A stretch of 5,857 nucleotides of DNA. It comes from Caldifarciminota bacterium 4484_100 (GTDB lineage Bacteria > Hydrothermota > Tepidihabitantia > SM23-42). The stretch is from the NCBI GenBank assembly GCA_002049785.1, contig MUKB01000079.1, positions 1 through 5,857 on the forward strand. Reading direction: 5' to 3'. A program made the position numbers and the translations under genes. Below the pieces are notes generated by a model. It was not told the DNA's origin. It searched no databases and worked only from the letters and a program-made list of their open reading frames with translations. How positions within the stretch are numbered: position 1 is the stretch's first letter; each line of letters opens with the position of its first letter. Below are positions 2,153 to 5,857 of the stretch, in pieces.

Positions 2153-3183
2153 TGGTACACAGTGCAACCAACCTCAAGGTAATCATCTCAGGAATCGGCA
2201 CCGGTGGCCACTATTTCCCTGCCCTGGTTGTAGCCAGAGAATTCAGAAAATATAAAAAACAAGTGATATTCTTGGTGCGCAGAGGCTTCACCGAAGAAAG
2301 GATTGCCAGGACCTATGGTCTTTCCCTTTACTATATCAAGGCACAGCCCTATTTTGGCAAGGATCTTCTGACAAAATTTAAATTTTTCCTGTCCCTTTTC
2401 TACTCAACAATTAAATTGATCAGCCTTACCCGAAATGCAATAGGATTTGCATTCGGGGGTTTCGGTTCCCTCAGTCTCATCCTTGCCTGTCTATTCAACC
2501 GAAGAAAATTTTATATCTTCGAGCCGAATCGCATACCAGGCCGGGCGACACGTCTCTTTGCTGGCCGGGCCCAAACGGTCTTCCTGGGTCTTCCGTTAAA
2601 ACAACCCCTTCCCGGACATTCAATGATCACCGGGATCCCGATTCGATCCGGGTTCAAATCGAAACACTCTACCGTGAATCTCCCAGAAAGGCCCTTGATA
2701 CTGTTCATAGGTGCGAGTCAGGGAGCGCGCACCCTGAACAGACTCGCCTTAGAACTTCAGGATAGACTCCCGGAAAATTATCGGCTCAAAATAATAACCG
2801 GGACAAGGGACTATGACTGGGTTATAAAAGAGAAATCTCCCCGCATCCAGGCGATCGCCTTCACTGAAACCCCCTGGCAGGATATGGCTGAAGCTGAACT
2901 GGTCGTCTCCCGTGCTGGTGCCCTTTCTGGATACGAACTCCTCGCCCTCAACAAAAAGGTGATTTTCATACCATTTCCCTATGCTGTTGATAACCATCAA
3001 TACTATAATGCCCAGTTTTTTTGTGAAAATGGAACCGCGGTTATGATCGAAGAAAAAGAGCTGGATGCAGAAAAATTGCTCGTGATGATTGAAACGATGT
3101 TAAAGAAAAAAACCAGTTCCCGGTGCAAACTCATACTCAATGCAGAAGAGAAGATTGTTAAGAATATTCTGAAGGAGAACTGA
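2152..3183 (+). CDS. murG: MurG, UDP-GlcNAc transferase making lipid II
   Basis: Peripheral membrane GT-B glycosyltransferase that moves GlcNAc from UDP-GlcNAc onto lipid I at the cytoplasmic face. From ATG 2152 it has 343 residues, slightly short of the usual 350-360. N-terminal acceptor domain: GIGTGGHYFPAL (14-25, with the His important for catalysis), FGGFGS (101-106) and EPN (124-126, usually HEQN). C-terminal donor domain: TGIPIR (160-165, usually TGNPVR), GASQGARTLN (187-196), SRAGALSGYE (253-262, with the Glu that binds the donor ribose) and DNHQYYNA (280-287). The Glu, Gln and Asn of the donor pocket are kept. Several signature residues differ: His to Phe before Glu124, Gln to Pro125, and Asn to Ile162. 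TGATG overlaps couple it to ftsW upstream and murC downstream. Function is secure from motif order and context; the lineage is divergent. Confidence 0.94.
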   Translation: MVHSATNLKVIISGIGTGGHYFPALVVAREFRKYKKQVIFLVRRGFTEERIARTYGLSLYYIKAQPYFGKDLLTKFKFFLSLFYSTIKLISLTRNAIGFAFGGFGSLSLILACLFNRRKFYIFEPNRIPGRATRLFAGRAQTVFLGLPLKQPLPGHSMITGIPIRSGFKSKHSTVNLPERPLILFIGASQGARTLNRLALELQDRLPENYRLKIITGTRDYDWVIKEKSPRIQAIAFTETPWQDMAEAELVVSRAGALSGYELLALNKKVIFIPFPYAVDNHQYYNAQFFCENGTAVMIEEKELDAEKLLVMIETMLKKKTSSRCKLILNAEEKIVKNILKEN

Positions 3184-4547
3184 TGCTCGGTAAAACTGAA
3201 CATATCCATTTTGTGGGAATCGGTGGTATCGGAATGAGCGGGCTTGCAACCATAATGCACAACCTGAAATTCAAAGTCACCGGTTCTGACATTAACCCTT
3301 CATCCATCACCCGGAGGTTGAAGAAACAGGGTATAAGGGTGTATTACAACCATCGTTCCGAAAACATCTCTGGTGCCGATGTCGTGGTCTATTCATCTGC
3401 AATAAAGGACAGCAATCCTGAACTCGCTGAGGCCCGCAGACTCAACATCCCATTAATCCACCGAGCCGAACTGCTCGCTGAACTGACCCGTTTGAAACTT
3501 GCCGTATGTATCTCTGGAACCCATGGCAAGACAACCACCACATCCCTCATCAGCGAAGTGCTACAATACGGTGGGCTTTCTCCGACCACGATAATCGGTG
3601 GTATCATAAAAGGAAAGAGTCAGGCACGCTTGGGCAAAGGTGACTATCTGGTCTGTGAGGTTGATGAATCAGACAAGTCCTTTCTCAAGGTCTTCCCTTC
3701 ATATGCGGTGATAACAAATATTGAAGCCGAACATCTTGACCACTATAAAAACCTCGATGAGATACTGGAGAATTTTTCATACTTTGCAAATCATGTGCCG
3801 TTCTGGGGATGCACATTACTCGGTATTGATATACCAACAAGTCTGAGCATAAAGGAAAGGATAAGAAAAAGAACCATTCTCTATGGTCTGACCGAGGAGG
3901 CACAGTTGAAGGCCTATAATATCCGTCGGAGCAATTTCGGTTCAACATTCAATGTCAGTTTTCATAAGAAAAAGGTCGGAAGATTCAAAATCCATCTTCC
4001 TGGAGTTCATAATGTCAGCAACGCCCTTGCCGCCATCGGCATCGGCATAGAGCTGGGTATAAGAACGAAAAAAATTGCTGATGCACTCGAACAATTTCGT
4101 GGAGTCTATCGCCGTCTGGAATTCAAGGGGGAGGTAAGGGGAATAATGCTCTTTGACGACTATGGTCATCATCCAACCGAAATCGCCGTAACCCTGCAGA
4201 CCCTGCGCAACTACTTTCCGAAACAGAGGCTCATCACCATATTCCAGCCCCACCGTTACACACGCACATATTATCTGTTTGATGAATTTGCCTTTTCATT
4301 CCTCTATGCGGACATTGTAATTGTCACCAGAATATATCCAGCCCATGAATCGCCCATCCCCGGGGTTAGTGGCGAGGCCCTGTCCCGACGGATTAAAAAA
4401 GAACAGAAATCGGTCTATTACATACCTGATTTCTCTGAAATAATTAATTTCGTGAAGACAATTGCAAAACGTGATGACATAATCATCGTCCAGGGTGCTG
4501 GTGATATCAGTAAACTCCCCCCGCTTCTTCTTAAGGAGTTGAAATGA
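3183..4547 (+). CDS. murC: MurC, UDP-N-acetylmuramate:L-alanine ligase
   Basis: Cytoplasmic ATP-dependent ligase adding L-Ala to UDP-MurNAc, the first amino acid of the stem peptide. 454 residues, normal for MurC. Domain 1 starts with the UDP-MurNAc-binding loop GIGGIGMSG (12-20), with GSD at 34-36 and SSAI at 71-74. Domain 2 has the P-loop GTHGKTTTT (112-120), EVDESDKSF (159-167), NIEAEHLDHY (179-188), PGVHNVSNALAA (273-284) and GVYRRLEFKG (307-316). Domain 3 has DDYGHHPTEI (325-334), QPHRYTRT (355-362), YPAHESPIPGVSG (385-397) and QGAGDI near the end. All the usual invariant residues appear present, including the Asp of DDYGHHPTE, which contrasts with MurD in this window. ATG 3183 overlaps the murG stop as TGATG, with AAGGAG at 3172-3177 five bases before it. 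Nothing suggests truncation or a fusion to MurB or Ddl. Confidence 0.97.
   Translation: MLGKTEHIHFVGIGGIGMSGLATIMHNLKFKVTGSDINPSSITRRLKKQGIRVYYNHRSENISGADVVVYSSAIKDSNPELAEARRLNIPLIHRAELLAELTRLKLAVCISGTHGKTTTTSLISEVLQYGGLSPTTIIGGIIKGKSQARLGKGDYLVCEVDESDKSFLKVFPSYAVITNIEAEHLDHYKNLDEILENFSYFANHVPFWGCTLLGIDIPTSLSIKERIRKRTILYGLTEEAQLKAYNIRRSNFGSTFNVSFHKKKVGRFKIHLPGVHNVSNALAAIGIGIELGIRTKKIADALEQFRGVYRRLEFKGEVRGIMLFDDYGHHPTEIAVTLQTLRNYFPKQRLITIFQPHRYTRTYYLFDEFAFSFLYADIVIVTRIYPAHESPIPGVSGEALSRRIKKEQKSVYYIPDFSEIINFVKTIAKRDDIIIVQGAGDISKLPPLLLKELK
4513..4540 (+). promoter_or_regulatory. Possible hairpin covering the murB ribosome binding site
   Basis: AACTCC (4513-4518) is the exact reverse complement of GGAGTT (4535-4540), which contains most of the murB Shine-Dalgarno AAGGAG (4533-4538, five bases before ATG 4544). 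The stem would be 6 base pairs with a 16-base loop, all within the end of murC. Ribosomes finishing murC would open it, giving translational coupling. The stem is short and may be chance; no folding energy was computed. Confidence 0.3.
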
Positions 4548-5425
4548 AAAATATCTTCCGTTCGATTAAAGGCATCAGGGTATTGAAAAAAACACCACTT
4601 TCAAGATACACATCGTTCCACATTGGAGGTTATGCCGACTATCTCATCACCGTCCATTCAAAAAGGGCATTAAGGAATGTATTTGAGAAGATAAAGAAAT
4701 ATAAGATTAGATATTTTATTCTCGGTGCCGGAACAAACCTTCTTGTTGCGGATTCTGGTTTTCGCGGTGTAGTAATAAAACTCGGTGGTGCATTCAAACA
4801 GCTGAAGCAAAAAAATAATCAATTTATATGTGGTGCGGGTTTGCTTCTCGACAAACTGCTTGAGAAAACAGCAGACCGGGGATATCAGGGTGCCGAGTTT
4901 CTCGCCGGTATACCCGGCACTGTCGGTGGTGCAGTAAAGGGTAATGCAGGCGCCTTTGGAAAATCGATAAGTCAAATCGTTGAATCGATAACCATCTTTG
5001 ATGGAAAAAACTTCAAGGAATTGAAAAAAGAAAGTATTAAATTTGGCTACCGTTTCTCTTCTGTAAAAAACGGTGTCTTTATCATCCAGGTGAAAGTAAA
5101 GCTGAGAAAATCAAACCGCCGTAGCGTCACAAAGAAGATGGCATATTATAAAAACTACCGCAAACAGAGACAACCCGATGAATGGTCTGCAGGTTCATTC
5201 TTCAAAAATCCTCCGGAGGTTCCCGCTGGAAAATTGATTGAGCAGTGTGGATTAAAGGGTCTAAGAATAGGTGATGCTGAGGTGAGTAATAAACATGCAA
5301 ATTTCATTATAAACCGCGGCCAGGCAACTGCAGAACAGGTCATCGCCCTTGCCCAGAAGATCAAGAGGGTGGTGAAGAATAAAAAAGGGGTCACCCTTAG
5401 AGAGGAGGTAAGATTATTAAAGTGA
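4544..5425 (+). CDS. murB: MurB, UDP-N-acetylenolpyruvoylglucosamine reductase (type II)
   Basis: FAD-dependent, NADPH-using cytoplasmic enzyme that reduces UDP-GlcNAc-enolpyruvate to UDP-MurNAc, the MurC substrate. 293 residues, typical of the shorter type II MurB. Visible: TSFHIGG (23-29), FAD-binding LGAGTNLLVAD (60-70, Thr where Ser is commoner), AGIPGTVGGAVKGNAGAFG (121-139), FGYRFS (167-172, the active-site Arg), SAGSFFKNP (215-223, Ser218 as catalytic proton donor), CGLKG and GDAEVSNKHANFIIN (243-257), and LREEVRLL (285-292, the catalytic Glu). ATG 4544 overlaps the murC stop as ATGA, with AAGGAG at 4533-4538. The protein is strongly basic, with many Lys codons. Its position directly after murC matches dcw clusters that carry murB, but no ddl gene follows. 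Confidence 0.96.
   Translation: MKNIFRSIKGIRVLKKTPLSRYTSFHIGGYADYLITVHSKRALRNVFEKIKKYKIRYFILGAGTNLLVADSGFRGVVIKLGGAFKQLKQKNNQFICGAGLLLDKLLEKTADRGYQGAEFLAGIPGTVGGAVKGNAGAFGKSISQIVESITIFDGKNFKELKKESIKFGYRFSSVKNGVFIIQVKVKLRKSNRRSVTKKMAYYKNYRKQRQPDEWSAGSFFKNPPEVPAGKLIEQCGLKGLRIGDAEVSNKHANFIINRGQATAEQVIALAQKIKRVVKNKKGVTLREEVRLLK
5403..5409 (+). promoter_or_regulatory. Ribosome binding site for the ftsQ-like gene
   Basis: AGGAGGT, a near-perfect Shine-Dalgarno sequence, lies at the end of murB, but 12 bases before GTG 5422, longer than usual. A stop (TAG 5398-5400) sits just upstream in the frame, and no ATG, GTG or TTG occurs between it and 5422. The GTG, overlapping the murB stop as GTGA, is therefore the best start. 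ATT at 5416 would fit the spacing better but is a very rare initiator. Confidence 0.5.
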
Positions 5426-5733
5426 TAACATTTCTTTTATGCATTACGGTGCTCATTATTTTAGCCATTGGTCTATTAAAGAAAAAAGAACATTATCTCC
5501 TACTCTCTGAGGTAATACCTGGAGGCAAGATAATATCCCTGGAGGAAGGGATTGTATCATATAAGGGTGTCCAATACATATTTGGCACCAATGACCTGAA
5601 GAGGAAAAAATACCTACTGGAATCACTTGGATTGTTAAATATCGAAGACTCGCTCATCATTGATTTAAGATTTAGCCGACAAATTATTATCAAAAAAAGG
5701 AGGACTGAGATTGGAAAAAGAAGGAGGCGATAA
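5422..5733 (+). CDS. Minimal FtsQ/DivIB-like divisome protein, POTRA domain absent
   Basis: A 103-residue protein in the place normally held by ftsQ, between murB and ftsA. Residues 4-19 form one hydrophobic segment, followed by KKKEH. Residues 41-91 resemble the end of the FtsQ beta domain: GIVSYKGVQYIFG (43-55, like the strand-turn before FtsQ's 'v.lG'), a Lys-rich helix-like stretch with LLESLGLL (65-72), then IIDLRFSRQIIIK (79-91), close to the DLRF..QvivR strand that ends FtsQ. FtsQ is usually about 250 residues or more, with a POTRA domain after the membrane segment; there is no space for one here and no remnant in other frames, because murB lies directly upstream. It ends in a very basic tail (residues 91-103, eight Lys or Arg). 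Lys after, not before, the membrane segment would predict a cytoplasmic C terminus, the reverse of FtsQ. The FtsQ relationship is an inference from position and the C-terminal pattern; an unrelated small membrane protein remains possible. Confidence 0.65.
   Translation: MITFLLCITVLIILAIGLLKKKEHYLLLSEVIPGGKIISLEEGIVSYKGVQYIFGTNDLKRKKYLLESLGLLNIEDSLIIDLRFSRQIIIKKRRTEIGKRRRR
5721..5727 (+). promoter_or_regulatory. Ribosome binding site for ftsA
   Basis: AAGGAGG lies five bases before ATG 5733, an ideal arrangement. The same bases encode the Arg-rich end of the ftsQ-like protein. A second AAGGAGG at 5697-5703 also lies in this tail. Confidence 0.75.
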
Positions 5734-5857
5734 TGCCAAAGAAAGATAGAATCATCAGTGTCGATTTGGGAACAACAAAGGTGGCGGCGATCATCGCTGA
5801 AGTCGAGGATAATGATCTCAAGATAGTTGGTGTCGGCTCCACCCCATCATACGGATT
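5733..5857 (+). CDS. ftsA: FtsA, actin-like divisome protein (3' partial, N terminus only)
   Basis: FtsA tethers FtsZ filaments to the membrane and helps activate septal synthesis. Only 41 codons are visible before the window ends. They show the phosphate-1 loop of the actin/Hsp70 ATPase fold, SVDLGTTKVAAIIAE (residues 9-23), then KIVGVGSTPSYG (30-41), matching the FtsA pattern 'IGvG...S.G'. ATG 5733 overlaps the preceding TAA stop as TAATG and has an excellent ribosome binding site. The short 4-residue lead before the first strand residues is normal. MreB or DnaK would share the loop, but the second motif and the cluster position favour FtsA. Confidence 0.9.
   Translation, partial: MPKKDRIISVDLGTTKVAAIIAEVEDNDLKIVGVGSTPSYG

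Follow-up and report, generated by a model that had tools for sequence, protein, structure and literature searches.

The locus examined here raises the question of what a protein of about 100 residues is doing in the position that FtsQ/DivIB holds in the division and cell wall (dcw) cluster. The window, by which we mean the whole 5,857-nucleotide stretch analysed (positions 1 to 5,857 of contig MUKB01000079.1 from Caldifarciminota bacterium 4484_100), has the order murB, a short open reading frame (ORF), and ftsA; we call the product of the short ORF mini-FtsQ. As called, the ORF starts at a GTG codon, runs from 5422 to 5733 on the plus strand (as do all other features of the window described here), and encodes 103 amino acids (aa). 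It overlaps murB (stop at 5425) by 4 nt and shares 1 nt with the ATG of ftsA (5733). The ORF, the tight overlaps on both sides, and the motifs named in an earlier sequence-only reading are all present: one hydrophobic segment, G55, a Leu-rich stretch (residues 65-72), IDLRF (80-84), and QIIIK (87-91). In the usual view FtsQ is a hub: its POTRA domain takes it to the septum, and its beta domain holds FtsB. As contig C32, the window belongs to a metagenome-assembled genome of 1.33 Mb (136 contigs, 53% complete). The assignment of mini-FtsQ draws on the ORF itself, on relatives in the same slot and a profile of FtsQ ends across 147 genomes of the phylum, WOR-3 (G000-G146, families f1-f37, f1 being the window's own family), and on a fold search and public collections.

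Matches to mini-FtsQ at E <= 1e-3 were found in 27 of the 147 genomes, the window's own included: 22 of the 23 f1 genomes, all four genomes of f2 (a second family of the same order), and G012 from another class. Twenty-six of these, again including the window's own genome, have an ORF of about 100 aa between murB and ftsA with no space for more sequence, and in G012, where the slot holds a 222-aa FtsQ, the aligned part is the C-terminal end of that protein. In the single f1 genome without a match (G075), no more of ftsA than its C-terminal part is present, along with a run of N at the slot, and this genome was excluded from slot counts. With this distribution the mini-FtsQ ORF is not due to chance. 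As the sequence-only reading had supposed from the overlaps, a frameshift or assembly error is ruled out: the length is the same in all 26 genomes, and five of these (G076, G085-G088) are single-contig. That reading had also held that a 250-residue protein at this position in relatives would speak against it; none was found in the 26 genomes, full-length FtsQ occupying the slot only in other families. The ratio of nonsynonymous to synonymous substitution rates (dN/dS) was 0.08-0.35 in seven of eight pairs (the eighth was undefined, with dS of 0), showing that purifying selection acts on the short gene. Relatives in the protein collection are mostly named "hypothetical protein" and many are tagged "candidate division WOR-3 bacterium", while the viral contigs searched held no relative. 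One 71-aa fragment of mini-FtsQ (P0059) is named "POTRA domain-..." at its source though it has no recognisable POTRA, which is likely an annotation artefact.

The C-terminal part of mini-FtsQ is related to the beta domain FtsQ_DivIB_C (PF03799). In hhalign, the mini-FtsQ profile aligned to the C-terminal end of full-length FtsQs from WOR-3 at 95.8%, against at most 1.2% for 60 shuffled controls, and the match was also far above reversed controls. Residues 40-93 align to residues 167-220 of the 222-residue G012 FtsQ, and the two proteins retrieve each other (E 6.9e-6 with mini-FtsQ as query and 1.3e-4 with the G012 FtsQ as query). When an AlphaFold2 (AF2) model was compared with the PDB using Foldseek, ranks 1-10 were all FtsQ chains at weak E-values above 0.1, and VIA-align matched model residues 25-96 to E. 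coli FtsQ 172-260; Foldseek and VIA returned no other clear fold for the model, which is no proof of absence. From these two sources, positions 5494..5709 appear to encode the second, C-terminal half of a beta domain like that of FtsQ (residues 25-96, strand-strand-strand-helix-strand-strand), preceded by a predicted membrane helix at 5425..5475 (AF2 helix 2-18; block predicted local distance difference test, pLDDT, 94 and 82). The earlier claim that the C-terminal pattern resembles the end of FtsQ is therefore borne out by profile and structural similarity. Direct searches were less informative: Pfam and NCBIfam gave nothing near cut-off for mini-FtsQ, its profile found no FtsQ among PDB sequences (the best matches were unrelated), and the DivIC profile (PF04977), tried since FtsB/DivIC had to be considered for a short bitopic protein, did not match it.

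The POTRA domain of FtsQ appears to be missing. Pfam found no POTRA domain (PF08478) in mini-FtsQ, where only about 80 residues follow the helix. POTRA_1 had no match at E <= 0.01 in the window's own genome or in G071, a genome of the same genus that is 99% complete; among the 23 f1 and four f2 genomes it matched only in G073, G068, and G069, always below cut-off and within frames of 730-739 aa, the size of an Omp85 protein. The G012 FtsQ carries POTRA_1 at residues 31-94. In sensitivity controls on 14 named genomes POTRA_1 rang in eight and PF03799 in five, so neither model is sensitive alone. Searches with the G012 FtsQ, PF03799, and profile A5 (28 rows of FtsQ ends and mini-FtsQs) found no FtsQ outside the slot in f1 or f2. 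The proposed search for a full-length FtsQ elsewhere thus returned none in G071 or the other f1 and f2 genomes searched, a result that is strong but not final given the incomplete genome of the window and the weak sensitivity of the Pfam models. Because no POTRA was identified, we file mini-FtsQ as a POTRA-less derivative of FtsQ: homology and position tie it to FtsQ, but its architecture is not the canonical one.

The retained end corresponds by alignment to the surface that contacts FtsB in E. coli. According to PMC6134095, the FtsQ hot spot for FtsB is Y243-W256 with Y248 at its centre, Y248F is functional, unlike Y248W and Y248K, and the contact needs no more of FtsB than residues 64-87. 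Through alignment A4 and PDB alignments, D81-L82-R83-F84 of mini-FtsQ (5662..5673) falls on E. coli D245-L246-R247-Y248. In alignment A3 (67 proteins) D81 is present in 67/67 and R83 in 62/67, residue 84 is F or Y in 67/67, and G55 is invariant. QIIIK (5680..5694; AF2 strand 89-92) forms the last strand, a predicted edge for FtsB strand addition, with Q87 in 65 and I89 in 66 of the 67. The window's own genome encodes an FtsB-like DivIC protein on another contig (C117:4874-5107, E 2.7e-12). According to PMC7614612, FtsQ is tied to FtsWILB through its beta domain and FtsB, with the POTRA domain and membrane helix flexible, and this is the arrangement that mini-FtsQ would keep.

Profile homology, the ftsQ slot, the lack of any POTRA or second FtsQ in our searches, purifying selection, and the kept hot-spot residues together argue for mini-FtsQ as a membrane-anchored FtsB clamp that does without POTRA recruitment, the most likely role and one in which we have good confidence. 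Its last strand (IIIK) would pair with the FtsB tail, F84 would stand in for E. coli Y248, and recruitment would run via FtsL-FtsB instead of the POTRA domain. The sequence-only reading of a reduced FtsQ is largely supported: it had named three observations that would speak against it, namely no similarity to the FtsQ beta domain, a full-length FtsQ elsewhere in the genome, and relatives with a longer protein at this position, and none of these was found.

Part of that reading needs revision, since the 103-residue ORF exists but its start is more likely the ATT at 5416 (105 aa) than the GTG at 5422. ATT-A occurs in the mini-FtsQ frame at the 3' end of murB in 22/22 f1 genomes, with GGAGGT or AGAGGT 6 nt upstream where the preceding stretch is shown; in the window this Shine-Dalgarno-like GGAGGT lies within the 3' end of murB at 5404..5409. 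The second-last murB codon is TTA in 22/22 genomes, compared with 4-55% of murB Leu codons, and among 45 invariant columns of murB with 4- or 6-fold amino acids it is the sole single-codon column. The third base is invariant in no more than 3/289 murB columns: the two spelling ATTA, and the GAG codon beneath the Shine-Dalgarno sequence, which is the same in 22/22 family members. The position of the window's GTG reads GTG, ATG, CTG, CTA, or ATA in relatives. Because ATT-A and the Shine-Dalgarno sequence are kept despite synonymous drift while the GTG varies, translation likely starts at AUU (5416..5418), adding M-K ahead of V-I-T-F. AUU start codons are known, as in infC. Such a start would place M-K/R ahead of the single hydrophobic helix (Lys at position 2), in keeping with an N-in orientation, yet three Lys follow the helix, and either orientation may apply. 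Initiation from the conserved AUU, coupled to murB, may also keep the protein scarce.

We then asked how far the short form extends across the phylum. An FtsA query matched at E <= 1e-10 in 133/147 genomes, a few probably being mere relatives such as PilM, and upstream DNA was examined in 98 genomes beyond the 26 and G012, 87 of them assessable. Profile A5 matched at E <= 0.01 in 64/147 genomes, with G047 a stray in a 1061-aa frame. Sixty of the 63 credible matches were seen in the slot (the 26 short ORFs, G012, 32 more, and G025, where ftsA was placed by the FtsA query search); G005, G011, and G130 were not placed there. States were assigned from frame and gap, with family used for cut contigs: FtsQ is full-length in 22 genomes, short in 41, and without credible match in 84 (83 with none plus the G047 stray, G075 included). 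Slot gaps measured 593-780 nt for full-length FtsQ and 311-472 nt for short forms outside f1 and f2, and in 51 of 55 assessable slots without FtsQ the distance from MurB (or MurC) to FtsA was under 150 nt (G141, G142, G144, and G146 being the exceptions). The 41 short forms comprise 22 from f1, four each from f2, f19, and f21, three from f17, two from f18, and one each from f5 and f28. The f28 protein spans the whole beta domain (hhalign 97.5%, A4 110-230); the others (1 to 3 sequences each) gave 93.2% for f18, 74.0% for f19, 18% for f21, 11.9% for f17, and 7.4% for f5, the last three being weak alone and assigned by position and by A5, which includes members of each. The 11 short forms outside f1 and f2 that were compared with the protein collection returned 12 proteins, the sole name given being Candidatus Hydrothermales.

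Several candidates for a relocated or hidden FtsQ were rejected. POTRA_1 frames of 380-510 aa occur in f23 and f32-f34; of the three scanned, L029 and L041 have Omp85 domains and L045 has POTRA-type matches only, appearing by eye to be an Omp85-type protein. The slot gaps of f37 hold no suitable frame, and a weak match at G144:C65 is a class-V aminotransferase. As side observations, the assessable genomes of f3, f4, f6, f7, f9, f10, f22, f25, and f26 (L092-L125 and others) have murB and ftsA overlapping, directly adjoining, or at most 145 nt apart; their slots lack ftsQ, and the FtsQ-end profile gave no credible match in these genomes. In G064 a single 859-aa frame ending at ftsA (L098; Pfam Mur ligase and MurB_C) fuses MurC and MurB, and the FtsA match at G046:C21:14744-15904 lies inside an 802-aa open frame, possibly another fusion.

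A tree of MurB, FtsA-N, and MurC from 118 genomes was built by a quick method, with states assigned by family (19 full, 39 mini, 60 none). Full-length FtsQ falls on one side of a branch with support 84. The three states require six changes, mini alone five and none alone five, at least four of them forced by starred branches; several rows sit on long branches and these counts are approximate. FtsQ with POTRA occurs in other bacteria and is hence taken as ancestral. Under that assumption the most parsimonious history has a single shortening at the base of a clade of 85 genomes, a second one in f28, and complete loss on repeated occasions. Along the phylum POTRA was probably shed first and the FtsB-contact end kept longest, before FtsQ was lost outright in several lineages.

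FtsB-like proteins offer a further view of these losses. DivIC (FtsB) matches at E <= 0.01 were found in 136/147 genomes, 83 above cut-off; weak ones, as in f19 and f21, may be other coiled coils. We aligned 74 FtsB-like proteins, again with states by family (A5 does not match two of the "full" rows, G006 and G129, and G075 is among the "mini" rows). Counted by eye over the segment that aligns with GEKVYLI in the window's own genome, place 2 is acidic and place 5 aliphatic or aromatic in 21/21 proteins of the full state, 27/29 of mini, 1/21 of none, and 0/3 of f37. A first stricter rule gave 15/21, 25/29, and 0/24 for full, mini, and none, and a second 15/21, 27/29, and 0/21, with 0/3 for f37; every rule was set after the data were seen. 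FtsB of f32-f34 ends short of the segment, and that of f37 retains a GE tail although no FtsQ was found there. With only about three independent pairs (sign test median p 0.5), the counts suggest but do not show that the FtsQ-binding tail of FtsB is canonical mainly where FtsQ is present and eroded or cut off where it was not found.

Three other explanations of mini-FtsQ were weighed. FtsQ may have been split, its POTRA part surviving as a separate protein that partners mini-FtsQ in trans. POTRA mutations in E. coli affect septal localisation (PMC3152878), and that job may still be needed. However, the only POTRA_1 matches in f1 and f2 are the three sub-cut-off, Omp85-size frames described above, and even with the limited sensitivity of such searches in this phylum we consider a split improbable. 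Slightly less probable still is that an unrelated small membrane protein with another division role took over the ftsQ slot. The lack of any direct Pfam, NCBIfam, or PDB sequence match and the Foldseek E-values above 0.1 favour such a replacement and weigh against the FtsB clamp. An unrelated protein is, on the other hand, hard to reconcile with a match to the FtsQ C-terminus far above shuffled and reversed controls, the reciprocal matches with the G012 FtsQ, ten top folds that are all FtsQ, and the kept hot-spot residues.

The frequent losses suggest, finally, that mini-FtsQ could be a decaying remnant without function, en route to the loss seen in sister families; 84/147 genomes have no credible FtsQ-end match, slots without FtsQ are mostly closed to under 150 nt, and the tree demands several losses. 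A gene in decay would not be expected to show the low dN/dS reported above, an invariant G55 and D81 with only F or Y at residue 84, or a ribosome site and ATT codon held against synonymous drift, and we regard a remnant as the least likely of the three.

The flanking genes fit the assigned position. murC (3183..4547) matches Mur ligase Pfam models and takes its name from gene order, murB (4544..5425) matches PF02873 and PF01565, and the 5' end of ftsA (5733..5857), which continues past the window, shares 76% identity over 41 residues with a relative's FtsA. In G071 the cluster reads mraW, an 83-aa ORF in the place of ftsL, ftsI, three Mur ligases and mraY (by order murE, murF, mraY, and murD), ftsW, murG, murC, murB, mini-FtsQ, ftsA, and ftsZ. 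These assignments have Pfam support for all but murC and murB; FtsA matches PF14450 and PF02491, and the 83-aa ORF has a DivIC match under cut-off. The AGGAGG at 5722..5727 is probably the ftsA Shine-Dalgarno sequence and at the same time encodes some of the Arg residues at the C-terminus of mini-FtsQ (5722-5733); the RRR, RRN, and RRK ends of relatives may have a like origin.

Taken together, WOR-3 may represent a natural deletion series of FtsQ, from POTRA plus beta domain (22 genomes) through beta domain only or its end (41) to none found (84). In this series, for which we see about even chances, POTRA would have been shed first and the clamp last, the tail of the unlinked FtsB would erode as the clamp is lost, and mini-FtsQ would be dosed by a conserved AUU start coupled to murB. 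If so, the core job of FtsQ would be capping FtsB, POTRA recruitment would be optional, and a divisome could drop FtsQ by also remodelling FtsB. If an FtsB-contact end of about 100 residues is a working FtsQ in two families while others do without, the two jobs are separable by natural deletion. Such a minimal module would show how small FtsQ can become, make its purpose testable, and offer, in compact natural form, the FtsQ-FtsB interface that is under study as a drug target.

According to PMC8871954, conservation of ftsQ is low enough that its orthologous groups were merged by their position ahead of ftsA. Like FtsQ of E. coli and P. aeruginosa (DivIB in Gram-positives), mini-FtsQ sits in the slot before ftsA, has a single hydrophobic helix at its N-terminus, ends in strands that carry D-x-R-[YF], and occurs together with FtsB. 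It differs in having 103-105 aa against 276 in E. coli and in lacking both the POTRA domain and the first half of the beta domain. Full-length WOR-3 FtsQs of other classes (such as G012, 222 aa) have the slot and C-terminus in common with it, but the G012 FtsQ carries a POTRA_1 domain that mini-FtsQ lacks. Our search of the open-access literature, with most subscription papers outside its coverage, found neither a POTRA-deleted short FtsQ in WOR-3 nor an FtsQ cut to its FtsB-contact end. An FtsQ without POTRA has chlamydial precedent. The chlamydial FtsQ Ct764 likewise has no identifiable POTRA, and the authors of PMC4643143 propose another recruitment route; Ct764 is reported to differ in having a large periplasmic domain with a diverged POTRA region, while in mini-FtsQ physical deletion has left only some 80 residues beyond the helix. 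A further difference is that Chlamydia has neither FtsA nor FtsZ, whereas ftsA lies directly downstream of mini-FtsQ, with ftsZ behind it in G071.
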